NCBI GenBank assembly: GCA_016214895.1
Contig: JACRMR010000003.1
Span: 372,001 to 436,000, forward strand
Source of the DNA: a candidate division KSB1 bacterium
Lineage (GTDB): Bacteria; Electryoneota; RPQS01
DNA: 64,000 nt
Reading direction: 5' to 3'
Shown here: positions 2,815-11,605 of the stretch, in pieces
Position numbering within the stretch: the stretch's first letter is position 1
Layout of the letters: every line of letters begins with the position of its first letter
Translations under genes and position numbers: made by a program
Notes under the pieces: model-generated
The model's database searches: none
Seen by the model: only the letters and a program-made list of their open reading frames with translations
What the model was told of the DNA's origin: nothing

Positions 2815-3165
2815 TCAGAACACGGTCACCTTGTCCGCCCAGACTGTCCAATCTGTCAGCTCGTCCATCGATCCCCGATGGACGCCGGTCAGCAGTTCAC
2901 TCACGGCGATCCCGCGCGCGTCAAGACAGCTGCCGCAAGCGCCGATGGGAACGCCTCTGGTCGCCAGGCTTTTCAGCATTCGCTCGAGATTGTAGTAACC
3001 GTCGGGTGTCCGCTGTCCGGCCTTTCCGCAGGCCGCGGCATCCGCCATTAGAAACAACTTGACCTCGGTGTCCGGCCGTTTTGCCAGACTCATGGTCAAG
3101 CGCAAACCGTTGTACGATCGTTCCGTGCCGTACGGCGGATCGTTGAGGATGACGAGATAGTTCAT
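2815..3165 (-). CDS. DsrE-family sulfur-relay-type protein (116 aa)
   Basis: The length and fold signature match small DsrE/YchN-type proteins: an N-terminal strand MNYLVILNDPPYGTE, a helix starting SYNGLRLTMSLA, the strand VKLFLMADAAACG, and a late ACGSC segment. Cys46, Cys77 and Cys80 are candidates for carrying persulfide sulfur, as in characterised DsrE proteins. The start has a clear AAGGAA site, and the gene lies 24 bp after the SQR-like gene, so it is the last gene of the same operon. It probably receives or buffers sulfane sulfur made by sulfide oxidation. That role is inferred from context and the cysteines. Confidence 0.8.
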   Translation of the reverse strand: MNYLVILNDPPYGTERSYNGLRLTMSLAKRPDTEVKLFLMADAAACGKAGQRTPDGYYNLERMLKSLATRGVPIGACGSCLDARGIAVSELLTGVHRGSMDELTDWTVWADKVTVF

Positions 3166-3189
3166 GTGCCGGTTTCCTTACCTTGCGTG

Positions 3190-4431
3190 TCAGAGAACGT
3201 CCGGGATCCCATAGCCTTTGGCACCCCATCGCAATATATTTCGCAGCAGAGCGCGCTTGAGGCCAAACGGTGCCAACCACCATTGCTCAAACAGCACCTT
3301 GCCGATGTGCCAGCTCTTGCCGACGCGCTTTAGCTGGACTTGTGGCGACGGTTCACCGAAGAAATTCCCGTGGGCAAAGCCGGCCAGGTCTTCCCCGACT
3401 TCGAGCATGCAGTAACCATCACCGCAGAACAGATCGGTCGGGTCACGCCCTTCGAGCCGGGCTGCGAGGTTCCGGGCCACGGTGTGAGCCTGCGCATGGG
3501 CGAAGACTCCGGCTTTCGGCAGCATCATCGGGACTTCGGGTTTCCACCGTCCCGGGATCGAAAGTGCGGCGGCATCACCCAGCGCGAACACGTTTTCGTG
3601 GTGCGTTGCCAGCGAGTTGCGATCCACCGGTACCCAGCCGCCTTCGTTTGTCAGATTTGAGATTCGCAAGGCCTCCGGTGCGCGATGCGGCGGGATCACA
3701 ACGAGCAGATCGTAGTCAACTGATCCCCGGGTATCAAAGATTAGTTGTTTGGCCCCGGTATCTACACGGTTCAATTTGTGGAGCGGGTGGAACTCTATTC
3801 CTTTGCTGAGCAGAAGACTTCGCACCAGTTCCCCCAGTTCGGGACCGGCCACCGGCAACGGCTGCGGCTCGGGAGTAAAGAGATGAACTTGGGTGGCTGT
3901 TGTCAGTCCGCGGCGCCGCATGCAGTCGGCGATCAGCATCGCCCCTTCGTGGGGCGCGCCGGGACACTTATACGGAGTTCCTGCTACGACCACGGCGATC
4001 TTGCCGCCAGTGCAAGCGCGCAACGCGTCATGCAGGCGGATCGAGCCGGGCAGCGTGTAGAAGGTGTGCGCGGTGTCGTCAAGTCCGGGAACGAGTTCCG
4101 GCGCCAGCTCCGCACCGAGCGCGATAATCAGGAAATCAAAGTCAAGCGACCGGGTGCTGGTTTCGACGCGACCGGCGGAAATATCGACGGACTTGACATC
4201 GGCCTGAACCAGCTCCACGTCGGGCCGCAACAACGTGCGCAAATCGCGGGTAATCTGGCGCGGCTGTCGATTGCCGGTCATGACCCACAGATAGGACGGG
4301 GCGAAAGCATGTTCGCGGTTGCGCTCGACGAGCACCACCCGATGTTTCTTCGAAAGGCGCGCTCTGAGTTCATTGGCGGCCGTGATGCCGCCGACACCGC
4401 CCCCCACGATGACCACTTGCTTTGAAGTCAT
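3190..4431 (-). CDS. sqr: Sulfide:quinone oxidoreductase-like FAD flavoprotein (413 aa)
   Basis: The protein opens with a Rossmann FAD motif, VVIVGGGVGGITAANEL (residues 6-22), and has a second nucleotide-binding region with ENVFALGDAAA near residue 284. Cysteines fit an SQR-type disulfide/persulfide site: Cys156 in KCPGAP, plus Cys336 and Cys341 in FCGDGYC. Length agrees with SQR and related type II NADH dehydrogenase-like enzymes. The expected reaction is oxidation of sulfide to sulfane sulfur with electrons passed to the membrane quinone pool. The C-terminal region (FEQWWLAPFGLKRALL) could be the membrane-binding helix. Neighbours (ArsR-rhodanese, cytochrome c, DsrE) support sulfide as substrate. 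A different disulfide-linked substrate cannot be excluded. Confidence 0.72.
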   Translation of the reverse strand: MTSKQVVIVGGGVGGITAANELRARLSKKHRVVLVERNREHAFAPSYLWVMTGNRQPRQITRDLRTLLRPDVELVQADVKSVDISAGRVETSTRSLDFDFLIIALGAELAPELVPGLDDTAHTFYTLPGSIRLHDALRACTGGKIAVVVAGTPYKCPGAPHEGAMLIADCMRRRGLTTATQVHLFTPEPQPLPVAGPELGELVRSLLLSKGIEFHPLHKLNRVDTGAKQLIFDTRGSVDYDLLVVIPPHRAPEALRISNLTNEGGWVPVDRNSLATHHENVFALGDAAALSIPGRWKPEVPMMLPKAGVFAHAQAHTVARNLAARLEGRDPTDLFCGDGYCMLEVGEDLAGFAHGNFFGEPSPQVQLKRVGKSWHIGKVLFEQWWLAPFGLKRALLRNILRWGAKGYGIPDVL

Positions 4432-4467
4432 TTCATCTCCCCGGTGATCCGGCCGGTCATGCGCACG

Positions 4468-5070
4468 TTAGTTGGAGACGCGCAGGTGAAGCGTACGTTC
4501 CATGTAGTTGCCGAGGAGTCCGGACTTCGCCTGGCCTTTCACGGCTTCGCCGCTCGTGAGCATCGCTTGAAAAGACACCTCAGCGTTCATCGCCGTTTCC
4601 GTGGGCCGGATGGTGATCGGAGCCGTGGTCAGCGCGGCATCCGGGTAGGCGGCGAGCTTGTCGCCGACAATGCGACATCCATAGGGCAAGTTGATCTCCC
4701 AGCCGGGAGCGAATTTGGACAGTGACGCGCCGCCGATCGCGGTGGTATCGAGCATGATCCAGCCGTTTCGACGGGGACTCTGCTCCGCTGCGGCGGCGCG
4801 ATAGCCGATGACGGCGAGCGCCGTCACTGCGGTACCGCGCCGGGCAGTGAGCAGAAAGCTGCCGTCAGGTTGGCGCAGACTCTGTTGAGTGTCTTTGTCG
4901 ATCAGATCCAAGATCAGATCGGGTCCGGCTGTCCATGGCCCGTTGTCGGCATGGCAGGCGAGGCAGGTGCGCGAGTTGCCGATGATTCCTACGGCCGGCG
5001 GAGACGCTGCGGCGCTCCCGGTGACCACGAGGATTATTGCGGCAAGCATGCTGAAAGCTAAATGAAGCAT
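4468..5070 (-). CDS. Exported monoheme cytochrome c-like protein (200 aa)
   Basis: The start at 5070 is set by an AAAGGAG site just upstream and by a signal peptide (a hydrophobic run in residues 3-22, ASPPA at the end). The frame stays open further upstream to 5430, but that part is a translated intergenic repeat. One heme-binding motif, CLACH (Cys36, Cys39, His40), lies immediately after the signal peptide, followed by a P-x-L segment. The remaining 150 residues match no family I recognise. It sits between the regulator and the SQR-like gene, so it may take electrons in the periplasm during sulfide oxidation. That is inference. Confidence 0.7.
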   Translation of the reverse strand: MLHLAFSMLAAIILVVTGSAAASPPAVGIIGNSRTCLACHADNGPWTAGPDLILDLIDKDTQQSLRQPDGSFLLTARRGTAVTALAVIGYRAAAAEQSPRRNGWIMLDTTAIGGASLSKFAPGWEINLPYGCRIVGDKLAAYPDAALTTAPITIRPTETAMNAEVSFQAMLTSGEAVKGQAKSGLLGNYMERTLHLRVSN

Positions 5071-5126
5071 GACACGGTCTCCTTTAGACGAACCGATTCC
5101 AATATGGCAGCAGGGGGGGGGCAGGC

Positions 5127-5168
5127 GCTTCAGCCCCTTGACCTTCGTCTCCGACAACGGGCTGAAGC
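5127..5168. repeat. GGGCTGAAGC-type palindromic intergenic repeat
   Basis: The arms GCTTCAGCCC (5127-5136) and GGGCTGAAGC (5159-5168) are perfect 10-bp complements around a 22-base loop, next to a run of G residues (5113-5121). Similar GGGCTGAAGCC intergenic elements occur in many environmental bacteria. It occupies the leader between the regulator and cytochrome genes. Confidence 0.6.
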
Positions 5169-5287
5169 CACGTTGCCTGGCCGAAGGTGATATTCGGATC
5201 CTATTACCAGATCGGTTCACGTTAGTGACGAAAACGGCGGCTTCGACAGGCCTGGGAGTCACCCGGTAACACGATGGGATCACGGTG

Positions 5288-5992
5288 TTATCGTGGGCGG
5301 GGCACGGACGACGGGCGCGGCGGATTGCTGTCGGCGACGATGGACATTCCCGCTTCCTGCCATTCGGCGACTCCGTCTCGGATGCGCGAAGCATGGAATC
5401 CTTTAGCCCGCAGCAGTCGTACGGCCTCACCGGCGAGCACGCAGTATGGCCCCCGGCAGTAGGCCACGATCGCTTGCGTCTTGGGCAAGTGGCTGAGATA
5501 GCTCCTCAGTTTCGGCAGCGGCACGGAGATCGCATGGGGCAGATGTGCTGCCCGGTACTCATCCTCCGGTCGGACATCGAGCACGGTTACTTGCCCGGTC
5601 TTTGCAAGCTTCAGCAACTCCTTGCGGTCCATCGGAGCCAGCGCACCGTCTTCTTGATTCAGCAGCTTCACAATTCGTTCAACCTCCCCTAACTGAGTCT
5701 CGGCCAGTTGCTGGAGGTTGCGAAACAACGGTGCGACCCGGTTTCCGGCGATGCGGTAAATCACCCGGACTCCGTCCTTCCGGGATTCCACCAGTGCGGC
5801 CCCGTGCAGGGCCTGTAGATGATGTGACGTGTTGGCCACACTCATCCCGGATCCGGCAGCGAGGGTCTCGACGTCTTTCTCGCACTGGACAAGTAAATCC
5901 AGCAGCTCCAGTCGTTTAGGGCTTGCGAGCGCGCTGCCGATACGGGCAAACTGAGTGAAGAGCCGGTCCTTAAGCTCGCGGGATGTCGTCAC
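5288..5992 (-). CDS. ArsR-family repressor fused to a rhodanese domain (234 aa)
   Basis: Residues 1-110 form an ArsR winged-helix domain (RLELLDLL, then the recognition-helix segment MSVANTSHHLQALHGAALV). Residues 125-220 form a rhodanese domain with the active-site loop AYCRGPYC (Cys179, Cys184) and a preceding LDVRPEDEYRAAHLPHA segment. Cys37 (VQCEKD) lies where related persulfide-sensing ArsR proteins such as BigR and SqrR have a sensing cysteine. The start codon is GTG. A perfect palindromic operator lies 13 bp upstream, which suggests autorepression. The rhodanese domain probably loads or reads sulfane sulfur to control the sulfide genes downstream. Confidence 0.88.
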   Translation of the reverse strand: MTTSRELKDRLFTQFARIGSALASPKRLELLDLLVQCEKDVETLAAGSGMSVANTSHHLQALHGAALVESRKDGVRVIYRIAGNRVAPLFRNLQQLAETQLGEVERIVKLLNQEDGALAPMDRKELLKLAKTGQVTVLDVRPEDEYRAAHLPHAISVPLPKLRSYLSHLPKTQAIVAYCRGPYCVLAGEAVRLLRAKGFHASRIRDGVAEWQEAGMSIVADSNPPRPSSVPRPR

Positions 5993-6179: not shown

Positions 6180-6473
6180 ATGATGCGTTCCACCACCTCC
6201 ATGTCACAAGGCATTCTGAGCCTGTTAGTATTCATCTTGTGGTTTGCAAGCAACGCCGCTTGCGAGCTGGATGATTGCTGCATGGATACTGATGGATGTT
6301 CAATATCTACAGAAATTTGCAGTTGTTCTTGTGCTTCACCGGCGCATGTGACAGACCCGGTAGTTTTCACGGTCGTTCAGACCCCTGAAGTCGCCGTGAA
6401 TCCGGAGCGTGCGGGTCTCCTGCCTGAAGGGATTATTGACCTACCCGATCGTCCTCCGATAGCCACCTGCTGA
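6180..6473 (+). CDS. Small Cys-rich exported protein (97 aa)
   Basis: Possible starts are 6144, 6180, 6183 and 6201. I choose 6180, but 6201 would give a tighter signal peptide. A hydrophobic segment (ILSLLVFILWFA) is followed by SNAAC, which could be a signal-peptidase site or a weak lipobox. The following 30 residues hold eight further cysteines (DDCCMDTDGCSISTEICSCSC). The C-terminal part is Pro-rich and ends in Cys. Its place directly before a metal-efflux adaptor with Cys/His repeats suggests periplasmic metal binding or sensing. No family was recognised. A hairpin follows the stop. Confidence 0.6.
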   Translation: MMRSTTSMSQGILSLLVFILWFASNAACELDDCCMDTDGCSISTEICSCSCASPAHVTDPVVFTVVQTPEVAVNPERAGLLPEGIIDLPDRPPIATC

Positions 6474-6524: not shown

Positions 6525-6552
6525 ATCTTAGCAGGTGAGACAGTGTCTTTTG

Positions 6553-6580
6553 ACGCCGCTGGCTCACAGCGGCGTTTTTT
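6553..6580 (+). terminator. Strong rho-independent terminator or attenuator ahead of the efflux genes
   Basis: CGCCGCTG (6554-6561) and CAGCGGCG (6567-6574) form a perfect GC-rich stem with a 5-base loop, followed by six T residues. It is 49 bp upstream of the adaptor gene start, so it either ends the Cys-rich transcript or acts as a conditional attenuator of the efflux operon. Confidence 0.8.
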
Positions 6581-6628: not shown

Positions 6629-8509
6629 ATGAAGCTTCTTCGAATCAGCCTCATCGTGTTTTTCGCGGTGCTGCTTGCCGCGGCGACGGTCGTGTTGTCG
6701 CAGAGCGAGCAGAACGCAGGTCCCGCCTCCACCTATTCCGGTGCCCCCTGTGCGGAACACGGGATCGCCGACAGTCTTTGTACCCGTTGTCATCCGGAAC
6801 TCGCGGCGGCATTCAAGCAGAAGGGCGATTGGTGCCTTGAGCATCGCCTGCCGGAATCACAAGACGATCTTTGCCATCCGGAACTGGCGAAGAAGTTCGG
6901 GACGATTTCAGTGGGGACCGCTGAGAATTCCGCGGCAAGCGCAAGCCCGGCGGCAGCGGACTGGTGCTCCGCGCATCGGGTACCCGAATCCGAATGCACC
7001 AAGTGCAACCCTTCATTGGTCGAGGCCTTCAAAGCGAAGGGCGACTGGTGCAAGCCGCACGGCATTCCGGAATCGCATTGCTATCAGTGCAATCCGGATT
7101 TGTCGTTTGCCCAGGATCCCAAGCAGCGAACGGGCAAGGCGGAAGTTGCGACTCCGGCGGCGGCGGACTGGTGCGTCGAGCATCGCGTCCCGGAATCGCA
7201 GTGTACCAAGTGTCATCCTGAACTGGCGGCGAAATTCAAGGCGGACGGGGATTGGTGTGGTGCTCACGGCATTCCGGAATCGCATTGTTACCGGTGCAAC
7301 CTCGGCCTGAAATTCCCGCAGGAAGCGGACTACCTGAAGCAGAAGTCCAAGCTCAAAGAGGAAAGTGGCTTGACGCCAGCCGGTCAACCGGAAACAGCGC
7401 TCTATCGTACGAATGCCGCCGCCTGCGCCACCGACCAGGCCGTGGTTCAGCTCACCAGTATCGAAAGTGCCCGGCGGGCCGGACTGCTGGTGGAGGAAGT
7501 TCAGGCCGCATCGCTATCGGAGACCATCAACGCCCCGGCTGAAGTGGAGTTCGATGCGACAGCATCGTATGCGGTCACCAGTCTTGTGGGCGGCACCTTG
7601 ATCAACTGGCTGGTGCAACCGGGCGAGTCGGTTCGGCAGGGCCAGACTCTCGCGTATATGCAGTCCATCGATGGTGCAACCTTGAAGGCCGAGTTTGGCC
7701 AGGCGCAGGCCCTGCTGAACTTATCGAAGAATGCGCATGATCGTGCTCAGGCCCTGAGTAAGGCCGGGCTGAACAGCGCTCGCGAGGCTCAGGAAGCTGA
7801 GGCCGATTACTTGCGTGCCCAGGCGGAATTTCGGAAGTCGGAGGGCGCGCTAAGAGCGCTGGGCTTGACCGACGACGATCTGCGACAGCTGGCCGACGGT
7901 GATGGCTCAAGCGCTCTGCTTCCACTGAATGCCGGGCAATCCGGGACTCTCGTGGATCAGCGCGTCGCGTTGGGATCGGTGCTGTCCGCCGGTGAGTCGA
8001 TCGGCCTGATTGCATCGACCGAGAAGCTGTGGATTGAGGCGCAGGTTCGCGACCGGGATCTTGCGCGCGTGAAAGTCGGGCAACCGGTCGTCGTTTCGTC
8101 GGACGGGCAGGGCGTGAATCGATGTTCGGGCACTGTGACGTGGGTCTCCGATCAGGTGGATCCGCTGAGCCGCATGGGTAAAGTGCGAATCGAAACCCGT
8201 CCCAACGGCAACGCGCTCAAGGCACATCAGTTTGTTCACGTGCAAGTTTCGGTAGGAACTTCGTCAGCGGCGGTGATCGTTCCGCCGTCGGCGGTGCAGT
8301 GGGAAGGCTGCTGCAATGTCGTCTTCGTATCGGAGACGCGAGACCGCTTCCGTCCGCGCAAGATCACCGTGGCCTTTGTTGACGATCAGGGATATGTGGT
8401 AACGGGGCTGCAACCCGGCGAGAAGATCGTGACTCACGGCAGCTACCTGCTGAAGACGGAATTGATGAAGGGTAGCATCGGAGCGGGCTGCTGCGGCACC
8501 GGAGCCTAA
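6629..8509 (+). CDS. RND metal-efflux periplasmic adaptor (CusB/CzcB type) with six Cys/His repeats (626 aa)
   Basis: A signal peptide (residues 1-24) precedes six copies of a motif close to WC-x2-H-x2-PES-x-C-x2-C-[HN]-P at residues 41-58, 69-85, 113-130, 141-158, 182-199 and 210-227. Copies 1 and 5 read CxxCH and the others mostly CxxCN; copy 2 has lost its middle cysteine. From about residue 270 comes a standard adaptor: barrel-sandwich/lipoyl halves around an alpha-hairpin (residues 350-420) and a beta-barrel. Later features are a GCCN motif near residue 557 and a GAGCCG tail. Such N-terminal repeats are seen in some environmental RND adaptors and are thought to bind soft metals. The permease starts 6 bp downstream. 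The metal is not determined. Confidence 0.88.
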   Translation: MKLLRISLIVFFAVLLAAATVVLSQSEQNAGPASTYSGAPCAEHGIADSLCTRCHPELAAAFKQKGDWCLEHRLPESQDDLCHPELAKKFGTISVGTAENSAASASPAAADWCSAHRVPESECTKCNPSLVEAFKAKGDWCKPHGIPESHCYQCNPDLSFAQDPKQRTGKAEVATPAAADWCVEHRVPESQCTKCHPELAAKFKADGDWCGAHGIPESHCYRCNLGLKFPQEADYLKQKSKLKEESGLTPAGQPETALYRTNAAACATDQAVVQLTSIESARRAGLLVEEVQAASLSETINAPAEVEFDATASYAVTSLVGGTLINWLVQPGESVRQGQTLAYMQSIDGATLKAEFGQAQALLNLSKNAHDRAQALSKAGLNSAREAQEAEADYLRAQAEFRKSEGALRALGLTDDDLRQLADGDGSSALLPLNAGQSGTLVDQRVALGSVLSAGESIGLIASTEKLWIEAQVRDRDLARVKVGQPVVVSSDGQGVNRCSGTVTWVSDQVDPLSRMGKVRIETRPNGNALKAHQFVHVQVSVGTSSAAVIVPPSAVQWEGCCNVVFVSETRDRFRPRKITVAFVDDQGYVVTGLQPGEKIVTHGSYLLKTELMKGSIGAGCCGTGA

Positions 8510-8515
8510 GCGCGG

Positions 8516-11500
8516 ATGCTCAACTACATCATCGAGTGGGTGATTCGGTATCGCTGGCCGGTACTCGCCATGGGCGGGTTCCTGGCGATTGCCGGTCTGA
8601 TCTCCCTTTCTCAGCTTCCGTTCGATGCCATGCCGGATATTACGCCGGCGATGGTCCAGGTGAACACGTCGATTCCGGGATACGCGCCGGAGGATGTGGA
8701 ATCGCAGGTCACGATGAGCATCGAGCGGGAGCTTTCGGGTCTGGCGGGACTGACGGAGATCCGCTCCATTTCCAAGTTTGGACTCTCGCAGGTGACCTGC
8801 GTATTCGCGGAAGGCACGGACGTTTATCGCGCCCGGCAGCAGGTCAGTGAGCGGTTGTCCACGGTCGAACTTCCGGAGGGCATCGAACGTCCGCGACTCG
8901 GTCCGATCTCGACGGGTCTGGGCGAAATATTTCACTATATCGTGATCGGCAAATCCGGGGACGCTACCGCGGCACGCGAAGCGCAGGATTGGTTATTGAA
9001 GCCTCAATTGCAGGCGGTGCCCGGCGTCGTGGAGGTAAACAGTTGGGGAGGTTTCGAGAAGCAATATCAGGTGTTGCTGGATCCGGCGCGACTCGCGGCG
9101 TTCCGCTTGACAGTTGCCGACGTGGTGGAAGCGCTGCGGCGCGGCCACCAGAATGTCGGCGGCGGGGTCACGACGCGGGCCGGTGAGCAGTTTGTGGTGC
9201 AGGGCGTAGGCGCGTTGACCAAGCGCGAGGACATCGAACGGATCGTGGTGGACACCCGCGACGGCACGCCCATCCATGTGGATGATATCGGTGACGTCGT
9301 GATTGGACATGCGCTGCGCATGGCGGCCGTTACGTACAACGGTCAGGGCGAGGCCGTGCTGGGCCTCGGATTTATGCTGACCGGCGAAAACCCGCAGCGT
9401 GTAGCGCGGGATCTTGAACAGCAGCTGCGCGCGGCGATCGAGACCCTTCCGCCGGGCGTCGAAGCTCATGTGGTGTACGAGCGCTCGCAGCTTGTGGATC
9501 AAGTGTTGGACACCGTTCAGCACAACTTGTTCTATGGTGCGGCGCTGGTGATCGCGGTGCTGTTCCTGTTTCTGGGGAACATCCGGGCCAGTATCCTGGT
9601 AGCACTGTCGATTCCCCTTTCCATGCTGTTCGCATTCAGTTTGATGCTGCAAACGAGCATCGCCGGCAGCTTGATGAGCCTCGGTGCGATTGATTTTGGA
9701 TTGGCGGTGGACAATTCGGTGATCCAGGTTGAGAATGTCATGCGCCGTTTGGGTCACCATTCGGAGCAGCGCAGCCGGTTGCAGGTGATCAAAGACGCCA
9801 TTCTTGAAGTGCGTAAGCCGACGATGTTCGGCGAACTCATCATTATGCTGGTCTATCTGCCGGTGCTCACGCTGCAAGGCGTGGAAGGCCGGTTATTTCA
9901 GCCGATGGCGCTGACGGTCATCTTTGTCCTAGCGGGTTCGTTGTTACTCTCGTTCACGGTTGTCCCGGCGCTTTGCGCGCTGTTTCTTCCGGCTACGGCA
10001 AAGGAACGCGAACCGAAGATCGTAGATTTCCTGCGCGGGTTGTATCAACCGGTGTTGAACTGGGCACTTCGCCACGCCAAACCGGTTTTGACCGTTGCCG
10101 TGCTGTTGGTGGTGGTCGCGGCGGTCGTTTTCATGAGGCTGGGTTCAGAATTCGTGCCCCGGCTCTCCGAGGGCAGCGTCGTCGTCAACCTGATCCGTCT
10201 GGCGGGAGTCTCGCTCGACCAATCGCGGGAAAACGGCGAGCGTGTCGAGGCCATTTTGCAGGAGAAGTTTCCCGACGAGGTTGCCGAAGTATGGACGCGT
10301 ACCGGGACGCCGGAGCTGGCCACGGACCCGATGGGCGTGGAGCTCTCCGATGTGTTTGTTTCGCTGAAACCGCGCAAGGAATGGACGCGCGCGGACCATC
10401 AGCAGCAACTGGTCGCGCTGATGGACGAGGAGTTGTCTGATCTGCCCGGGATGAATCTGGTCTTCACGCAGCCGATCGAGATGCGCTTCAATGAACTGGT
10501 TGCGGGCATTCGCACGGATATCGGGATCAAGATTTTCGGCGACGATTTGGACGTGCTGAAGGAGAAGGCACTGCAGATTGAGCAGATCGTCAAGGAGACT
10601 GATGGCGCGGCGGATGTGACCACGGAGCAAATCTCGGGGCAACCCGTCCTGAGGATTGAGGTGGATGCGGAGGCGTTATCGCGCTACTCGCTATCATCCG
10701 CCGACGTTCTGGAGGCCGTGCAGACGCTCGGCGGCACGCCGGTGGGCGAGGTTCGCGAGGGCCAGCGGCGCTTTGAACTTGTGGCGCGGATGGACGAAGC
10801 CTTCACGCGAACGCCCGAAGCGATGGACGGCATCCTCCTGCCGGCTCCGGAGGGTGAACTCGTGCCGTTGCTTCAAGTAACCCGGTTGCGACAGACAGAA
10901 GGGCCGTCCACGATTTCGCGGGAGTGGGGCAAGCGCCGCGTGGTAGTGCAATGCAATGTTCGCGGGCGCGACGTGGGTACATTTATCGACGAACTTCGCG
11001 CCCGTATCGACAAAGAGGTGTCGTTTGAAGCGGGCTACTACGTCCGTTACGGCGGGCAGTTCGAGAATCTGGAACGAGCCAGAGCACGCCTGATGATTGT
11101 GGTGCCGCTTGCCTTGCTGCTGATCTTTGGACTGTTGTATTGGACGTACAAGTCCGTTCGCGACGCGCTGCTCATATTCAGCGGTGTGCCGTTGGCCGCG
11201 GTGGGCGGCGTACTGGCACTGGCGGTACGCCAGATGCCGTTCACGATCTCCGCGGGAGTCGGCTTCATCGCGCTCTCAGGAATCGCGGTCTTGAACGGAC
11301 TGGTGCTGGTCTCTTCCATTCGCCAACTGCAGCAGGAAGGCCGGTCGCTGGCCGACGCCATTCGCACGAGCGGGTCGCTGCGGATGCGCCCGGTGATCAT
11401 GACTGCCCTGGTGGCGGCTTTGGGTTTCGTACCGATGGCGTTTTCCAATAGTGTCGGATCGGAAGTCCAAAGACCGCTGGCAACCGTGGTGATCGGCGGG

Positions 11501-11605
11501 ATTCTAACGTCCACGTTACTCACTCTGATCGTATTGCCCGTGCTCTACAAGCTGGCAGGCCGGCCGTTACCGCAAGGCGAGAATCAAGCCAAGTCAACGA
11601 TGTAA
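8516..11605 (+). CDS. CusA/CzcA-family heavy-metal RND efflux permease (1029 aa)
   Basis: Length and layout are those of HME-type RND pumps: an N-terminal membrane helix (residues 12-30), a large periplasmic porter/docking loop, a block of membrane helices around residues 335-530, a second periplasmic loop and the final helices from about 860. The proton-relay helix reads DFGLAVDNSVIQVEN, keeping the acidic residues typical of CzcA/CusA. The protein works with the adaptor just upstream. No outer-membrane factor gene is adjacent, so TolC must come from elsewhere. The substrate (monovalent Cu/Ag or divalent metals) cannot be decided from what I can see. A terminator follows. Confidence 0.9.
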   Translation: MLNYIIEWVIRYRWPVLAMGGFLAIAGLISLSQLPFDAMPDITPAMVQVNTSIPGYAPEDVESQVTMSIERELSGLAGLTEIRSISKFGLSQVTCVFAEGTDVYRARQQVSERLSTVELPEGIERPRLGPISTGLGEIFHYIVIGKSGDATAAREAQDWLLKPQLQAVPGVVEVNSWGGFEKQYQVLLDPARLAAFRLTVADVVEALRRGHQNVGGGVTTRAGEQFVVQGVGALTKREDIERIVVDTRDGTPIHVDDIGDVVIGHALRMAAVTYNGQGEAVLGLGFMLTGENPQRVARDLEQQLRAAIETLPPGVEAHVVYERSQLVDQVLDTVQHNLFYGAALVIAVLFLFLGNIRASILVALSIPLSMLFAFSLMLQTSIAGSLMSLGAIDFGLAVDNSVIQVENVMRRLGHHSEQRSRLQVIKDAILEVRKPTMFGELIIMLVYLPVLTLQGVEGRLFQPMALTVIFVLAGSLLLSFTVVPALCALFLPATAKEREPKIVDFLRGLYQPVLNWALRHAKPVLTVAVLLVVVAAVVFMRLGSEFVPRLSEGSVVVNLIRLAGVSLDQSRENGERVEAILQEKFPDEVAEVWTRTGTPELATDPMGVELSDVFVSLKPRKEWTRADHQQQLVALMDEELSDLPGMNLVFTQPIEMRFNELVAGIRTDIGIKIFGDDLDVLKEKALQIEQIVKETDGAADVTTEQISGQPVLRIEVDAEALSRYSLSSADVLEAVQTLGGTPVGEVREGQRRFELVARMDEAFTRTPEAMDGILLPAPEGELVPLLQVTRLRQTEGPSTISREWGKRRVVVQCNVRGRDVGTFIDELRARIDKEVSFEAGYYVRYGGQFENLERARARLMIVVPLALLLIFGLLYWTYKSVRDALLIFSGVPLAAVGGVLALAVRQMPFTISAGVGFIALSGIAVLNGLVLVSSIRQLQQEGRSLADAIRTSGSLRMRPVIMTALVAALGFVPMAFSNSVGSEVQRPLATVVIGGILTSTLLTLIVLPVLYKLAGRPLPQGENQAKSTM

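Follow-up and report, generated by a model that had tools for sequence, protein, structure and literature searches.

An adaptor gene with six N-terminal Cys/His units

The window studied here, i.e. the whole stretch of 64,000 nucleotides analysed from a candidate division KSB1 bacterium, contains at positions 6629-8509 (+ strand) an ORF of 626 aa made of a membrane anchor, six Cys/His units and a CzcB/ZneB-type adaptor body. The N-terminal membrane anchor, or signal helix, occupies residues 1-28 (6629..6712, +), with a hydrophobic helix at residues 2-28 in the AlphaFold2 (AF2) model; the sequence has no lipobox. The periplasmic adaptor domains, HlyD_D23 and HlyD_3, are located at 7400..8473 (+). 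This adaptor body matches PF16576 with an E-value of 1e-31 and the ZneB structure 3lnn with an E-value of 7.5e-24, and it includes a QWEGCCNVVFV loop near 8297-8329. The protein ends with a Cys tail, SIGAGCCGTGA (8474..8506, +), predicted to be disordered (pLDDT below 50 at residues 616-626). Downstream, in the same operon, a CzcA-type RND permease is encoded at 8516..11605 (+), with 1168.7 bits against TIGR00914 (cut-off 701). The adaptor ORF scores above the TIGR01730 cut-off, the AF2 model shows elements of a HlyD adaptor body (barrel-sandwich, lipoyl and beta-barrel), and its gene adjoins that of a CusA/CzcA-type permease, as expected for such a protein. Against TIGR00999, the CzcB/NccB subfamily profile, it obtained 144 bits, below the cut-off of 319, so that it should be considered a CzcB relative rather than CzcB itself.

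A sequence-only reading of this DNA had noticed six Cys/His repeats between the anchor and the adaptor domains. They are indeed present, at residues 40-234, but they form three A-B pairs (R1R2, R3R4 and R5R6) rather than six equal repeats. The A units are R1 (residues 40-67; 6746..6829, +; PCAEHGIADSLCTRCHPELAAAFKQKGD), R3 (residues 112-139; 6962..7045, +; WCSAHRVPESECTKCNPSLVEAFKAKGD) and R5 (residues 181-208; 7169..7252, +; WCVEHRVPESQCTKCHPELAAKFKADGD), of the form [WP]-C-x2-H-x6-C-T-x-C-[HN]-P-x-L, then a trailing FK..GD. The B units are R2 (residues 68-91; 6830..6901, +; WCLEHRLPESQDDLCHPELAKKFG), R4 (residues 140-164; 7046..7120, +; WCKPHGIPESHCYQCNPDLSFAQDP) and R6 (residues 209-234; 7253..7330, +; WCGAHGIPESHCYRCNLGLKFPQEAD), of the form W-C-x2-H-x2-PES-x-[CD]-x2-C-[HN]. 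The general unit is of the C3H type, Cys-x2-His-x6-Cys-x2-Cys. As initially described, two copies have a CxxCH motif (these are copies 1 and 5) and the other four do not. The WC..PES form given at the same time does not apply to copy 1, which starts with 'PC' and has 'IADS'.

Conservation of the ligands and selection on the units

Cys or His is found at 23 of the 24 ligand positions of the window units. The closest orthologue, a member of the same family that also has six units, is 71% identical in the unit region and 77% in the adaptor. All 23 Cys/His ligands are identical between the two proteins, many of them by way of synonymous codon changes, and the pattern recurs in other phyla, so it is not a product of chance. 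Relative to this orthologue, dN was 0.135 for the units, 0.145 for the adaptor and 0.51 for the linkers, dS being close to saturation or beyond it. This indicates that purifying selection acts equally on the units and on the pump part, and that the linkers are not so constrained.

The remaining ligand position is D79 (6863-6865), which replaces the first Cys of the CxxC of copy 2. Both Cys of this copy are retained in the relatives, hence the replacement arose in the window lineage. The loss of this Cys had been correctly spotted from the start; the relaxed selection then suggested as a possibility is unproven, as the units as a whole are as constrained as the adaptor and an Asp also occurs in three myxococcal proteins. 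These are related lipoproteins (L047 3700-4032, L048 5442-5882 and L052 5839-6171), whose second units have the ligands C-H-D-H, with the Cys to Asp change at the same place as in window copy 2.

We then considered a set of 199 distinct units. Across the set, the counts at the successive ligand positions are 185 (Cys), 198 (His), 195 (Cys) and 194 (Cys), figures that are somewhat inflated, since the units were gathered with a profile that rewards ligands. At the first column, the other 14 are alignment gaps, corresponding to C-x-H rather than C-x2-H units in which the Cys is kept. The 10 ligand exceptions are found in seven units, three of which come from one small clade, and every replacement is Cys, His or Asp. 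The non-ligand W, PES and NP are strongly conserved in the profile as well. Four near-invariant Cys/His ligands, replaced by other ligands only, are what a C3H zinc-binding module would present, and as far as sequence can tell the pattern is consistent with metal ligation and inconsistent with heme.

Heme had been envisaged for the two CxxCH copies, R1 and R5, which would give the adaptor a role in electron transfer or sensing. The motifs do lie in an exported protein, and the genome encodes two CytC_asm proteins (PF01578, CcmC/CcsA-type), a sign of cytochrome c maturation. Yet CxxCH is absent from four of the six copies and from 81% of all units: the residue following the last Cys is Asn in 137 of the 199 units, His in 37 and another residue in 25. 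Moreover, two of the three His found at this place in the window, H83 in the 'LCH' of R2 and H196 in R5, are Asn in the closest orthologue, meaning that the heme-like His is not kept, and no heme domain matched. With such a variable His after CxxC, we rejected covalent c-type heme attachment, which is extremely improbable.

Predicted structure of the unit pairs

AF2 modelling of the R5-R6 pair, with 90 pairs, gave a mean pLDDT of 95.5. The full-length model has three well-folded pairs, with disorder in the linkers at 91-108 and 169-177 and in the Cys tail; the predicted pairs are thus strung like beads along flexible linkers. No match at E≤10 was found for the pair by Foldseek against the PDB, a program that is weak on 59 residues. 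The unit profile did not match PDB sequences (best E-value 0.18), and the units matched nothing in Pfam or NCBIfam. Known zinc-finger families and PDB folds were therefore discarded as identities for the units, none having matched.

Distribution and genomic company of the units

Scanning GTDB species genomes with a pair profile returned 55 loci, from Calditrichota, Zixibacteria/GN15, Myxococcota, Planctomycetota, Krumholzibacteria, Gemmatimonadota, Gammaproteobacteria and unclassified bacteria; two planctomycete plasmids also match the profile. Among the loci, the named sequences closest to the window come from Calditrichaeota MAGs. Units were present in 5 of 39 sampled genomes of the phylum of the window, in 27 of 189 sampled Myxococcota genomes (the phylum of Sorangium) and in 56 of 246 sampled Planctomycetota genomes. 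Within the phylum of the window, they are found in all five adaptors of the window clade (41-100% identical) and in none of five distant ones (26-32%). Aligning homologues and counting repeats, as the sequence-only reading had advised, shows that the pattern is kept across phyla and that the number of units varies from 1 to 7. Among the 68 adaptors whose ORF start is inside the locus, there are two units in 31, four in 11, three in 11, six in 9 and another number in 6.

With few exceptions, the units occur with the adaptor of one type of RND pump, either fused to it or encoded by a neighbouring gene. An adaptor domain is present in 54 unit ORFs; the other 29 are mostly lipoproteins of Myxococcota whose genes directly precede that of such an adaptor. 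In Planctomycetota, a lone unit lipoprotein is encoded 3' of the permease gene, and on a planctomycete plasmid a lone unit protein lies between czcCBA and genes for HMA, CadA and CzcD. A pair-profile search of 16 whole genomes (2-13 Mb) placed the units in adaptors or in small lipoproteins. A Pfam scan of 50 neighbours revealed outer-membrane factors (6), P-type ATPases (2), CDF proteins (2) and ArsR regulators (2).

The sole class of exceptions to the adaptor or small lipoprotein rule consists of lipoproteins from five myxococcal genomes in which a unit pair is joined to a thioredoxin domain (L043 5809-6507, L180 2893-3567, L181 2858-3619, L182 2587-3405 and L183 2843-3478). No pump was found near these genes, and the neighbours checked are unrelated.

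Such fusions, and the presence of cysteines in the periplasm, might suggest a thiol redox or disulfide role for the units, in which they would sense oxidation or repair it instead of carrying metals. We consider this improbable: the invariant His, and the His or Asp seen at Cys positions, fit metal ligation and not disulfides, and the thioredoxin fusions are few, with neighbours that have no relation to pumps.

A C-terminal Cys tail accompanies the units

Unit-bearing adaptors end with G-x-G-C(C), e.g. GAGCC. By a strict rule, this holds for 80 out of 82, two of the 82 being scored as unit-bearing because their units are upstream of, or cut from, the locus ORF; a DGC variant adds one. None of 17 related adaptors devoid of units has the Cys tail. 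Most of them end in stretches rich in His, for example GDGHGH, and in two a region of HGDDDH repeats takes the place of the units at the N-terminus. A blind DNA search for the tail pattern in the 246 Planctomycetota genomes yielded 17 sites, all of them 1.0-2.2 kb downstream of a unit that had been found independently of the tail search.

In a quick adaptor tree, 79 of the 82 unit-bearing adaptors fall in one supported clade and three outside, two of which also have a Cys-containing tail. Independent joint gains of units and tail are few (two pairs on starred branches, with the same direction in 1.5 on average). As most unit-bearing adaptors belong to one clade, the correlation may come down to one or two independent events: it is strong as a marker, and weak as a count of independent events.

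These observations also bear on a purely structural role, in which the units would bind zinc for folding only, and act as beads, for spacing or for docking to an outer-membrane factor or a lipoprotein, with no hand-on of metal. A compact fold predicted with high confidence, the conservation of W, PES and NP, which are not ligands, and the variable copy number would all suit such beads. The almost exclusive link to metal efflux operons, the coupling of units with the Cys tail and the existence of stand-alone unit lipoproteins in the same operons would not, and we hold this role to be unlikely.

The permease, the host genome and the upstream leader

The window permease is 47.3% identical to CzcA of C. 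metallidurans pMOL30, and the permeases encoded downstream at unit loci are 50-87% identical to that of the window. For comparison, we used the residues of the ZneA site and the CusA Met triad (M573/M623/M672). Permeases of unit loci share the TM4 motif DFGxxVD(S/N)(S/A), have retained acidic residues around the ZneA site, and carry Met at none of the three CusA positions; in the window permease, N, L and E are at the places of the triad. Conserved Met residues are found near the site, beside the carboxylates.

The window genome (3.2 Mb, 97.9% complete) has 12 adaptor loci, only one of which has units. A separate CusB with two HMBD repeats, together with a CusA that has all three Met, is encoded on another contig (C25, L188 3-4770), which supports a division of labour between the two systems. 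An outer-membrane factor gene was sought beside the window operon and none was found; as there are 16 OEP matches elsewhere in the genome, the outer-membrane factor is probably used in trans.

Upstream of the adaptor gene, an exported Cys-rich leader of 97 aa, ending with DRPPIATC, is encoded at 6180..6473 (+), and a homologue is present at locus L060. The region that follows, up to 6628, contains a hairpin, a GCAGGTGAGACAG box complementary to the last codons of the leader, and then an intrinsic terminator (6552..6576, +) between leader and adaptor gene. L060 (5483-5919) conserves the leader end, the hairpins and the terminator, one pair of the terminator stem being compensated. The leader is probably part of the control of the operon. 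It resembles a metal sensor of the CutF type, with attenuation of transcription, a lead rather than a result: it matched no Pfam family, and its CutF-like membership is thus by architecture only. An Rfam search of the leader region returned only sub-threshold sRNA matches, probably reflecting just the terminator shape. The leader lies between the adaptor gene and a divergent operon of sulfide type (2815-5992, -). The latter encodes a regulator that fuses ArsR with rhodanese, an exported protein carrying the heme motif CLACH, a flavoprotein resembling sulfide:quinone reductase, and DsrE, and looks like a sulfide oxidation cluster under ArsR control.

The same relay might serve Cu(I)/Ag(I), as in Cus, instead of divalent ions, a possibility that overlaps with the explanation we prefer. 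The ligands are soft, the conserved Met beside the carboxylates of the permease are compatible with Cu(I), and the leader is CutF-like, most Cys-type relatives of CutF being linked to copper (PMC9973294); these last two points count against divalent ions. Nevertheless, the permease is closest to CzcA/ZneA and lacks all three Met of the CusA triad, a CusBA with HMBD is available in the same genome, and the plasmid neighbours are of the CadA/CzcD type. The candidate metals are Zn, Cd and Co and, less likely, Cu; a dedicated Cu(I)/Ag(I) function has a low probability.

A putative relay of thiophilic ions to the pump

The units and their conservation, their near restriction to one pump type, the correlation with the tail, the partner lipoproteins and the predicted fold are observed; from these we infer metal binding, the metal concerned and its transfer. 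Our preferred explanation, to which we give a probability of roughly 0.7, is that the six units are copies of an unnamed C3H metal-binding domain that would capture thiophilic divalent ions and relay them to the pump. It agrees with the sequence-only reading, for which soft-metal binding and hand-over were already put forward; near-invariance of the ligands, ligand-only substitutions, an almost exclusive association with one type of heavy-metal RND pump and the matching Cys tail make it the best reading. Three A-B modules, held by flexible linkers between membrane anchor (inner membrane) and CzcB-type adaptor body, would capture periplasmic Zn2+, Cd2+, and perhaps Pb2+ or Co2+. Capture by the swinging pairs would raise the local ion concentration at the pump, and the ions may then be passed to the CzcA-type permease, perhaps via the flexible Cys-rich tail of the adaptor. 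In many relatives, a free unit-bearing lipoprotein would help in the relay. Against such a relay, the cysteines of the units could become oxidised in the periplasm.

Periplasmic ion loading of RND metal pumps is understood mainly for Cus, where it is based on Met. A Cys/His module that exists in fused, tandem and free forms in several phyla, and is accompanied by a Cys tail, offers a tractable second case of loading, and allows many hypothetical proteins to be assigned a named domain. More tentatively, and at somewhat less than even odds, paired C3H domains of 25 residues may be a widespread new family, with a fold absent from the PDB. Lipoprotein, adaptor modules and Cys tail would then make up a complete periplasmic thiol relay in one RND clade, replacing the His-rich regions of Czc and shifting selectivity towards thiophilic metals. 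Units with GAGCC, as opposed to His-rich regions with GHGH, also provide a sequence marker that could predict pump selectivity. We found no description of the unit domain in the literature, in a search that covered few subscription journals, and its novelty is probable rather than certain.

Comparison with known systems

The CzcB/ZneB adaptors (TIGR00999, PF16576) resemble the window system in their adaptor body, in the adaptor-permease gene order and in the CzcA-type permease. ZneB binds Zn (PMC4446572). The window adaptor differs by its N-terminal C3H pairs and GAGCC tail, in place of His-rich regions, and no outer-membrane factor gene adjoins its operon.

Like the units, the HMBD of CusB (PF19335) are small domains arranged in tandem in the N-terminal part of an HME adaptor, with the ligand order C-x2-[HD]...C-x2-C. 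In contrast to HMBD (CPMH...CPxCGM), the units have no conserved Met in their profile (neither CPMH nor CGM), a shorter spacing, and a W/PES/NP signature. None of the three unit pairs matched PF19335 at E≤10; the CusB encoded in the window genome matches it at 1.1e-21. Aligning the units with HMBD by hhalign gave a global probability below 1%, and a local one of 66% over only 11 columns, i.e. one knuckle. Membership of HMBD was ruled out on these Pfam and hhalign results.

CutF-like nascent sensors (PMC9973294) share with the window leader a hydrophobic export signal, a Cys cluster, a C-terminal proline motif and hairpins before the next gene; the window leader differs by the intrinsic terminator that separates it from the adaptor gene.

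Finally, CusF and the CusF-like C-terminal domain of SilB offer a parallel to the units, as both stand-alone and adaptor-fused forms occur in one and the same operon type (PMC4446572). CusF folds as a beta-barrel that binds metal (PMC4446572), whereas the units are Cys/His modules of 25 aa that match nothing in the PDB. Hand-over of metal from CusF to the N-terminus of CusB, and then to the pump, has been demonstrated (PMC4446572). By analogy, the best reading is that the units would work like CusB, HMBD and CusF while belonging to none of these families. The extension domain matches no family in Pfam or NCBIfam, and the window system as a whole is an HME-RND adaptor with an N-terminal metal-binding extension, which is a known kind.
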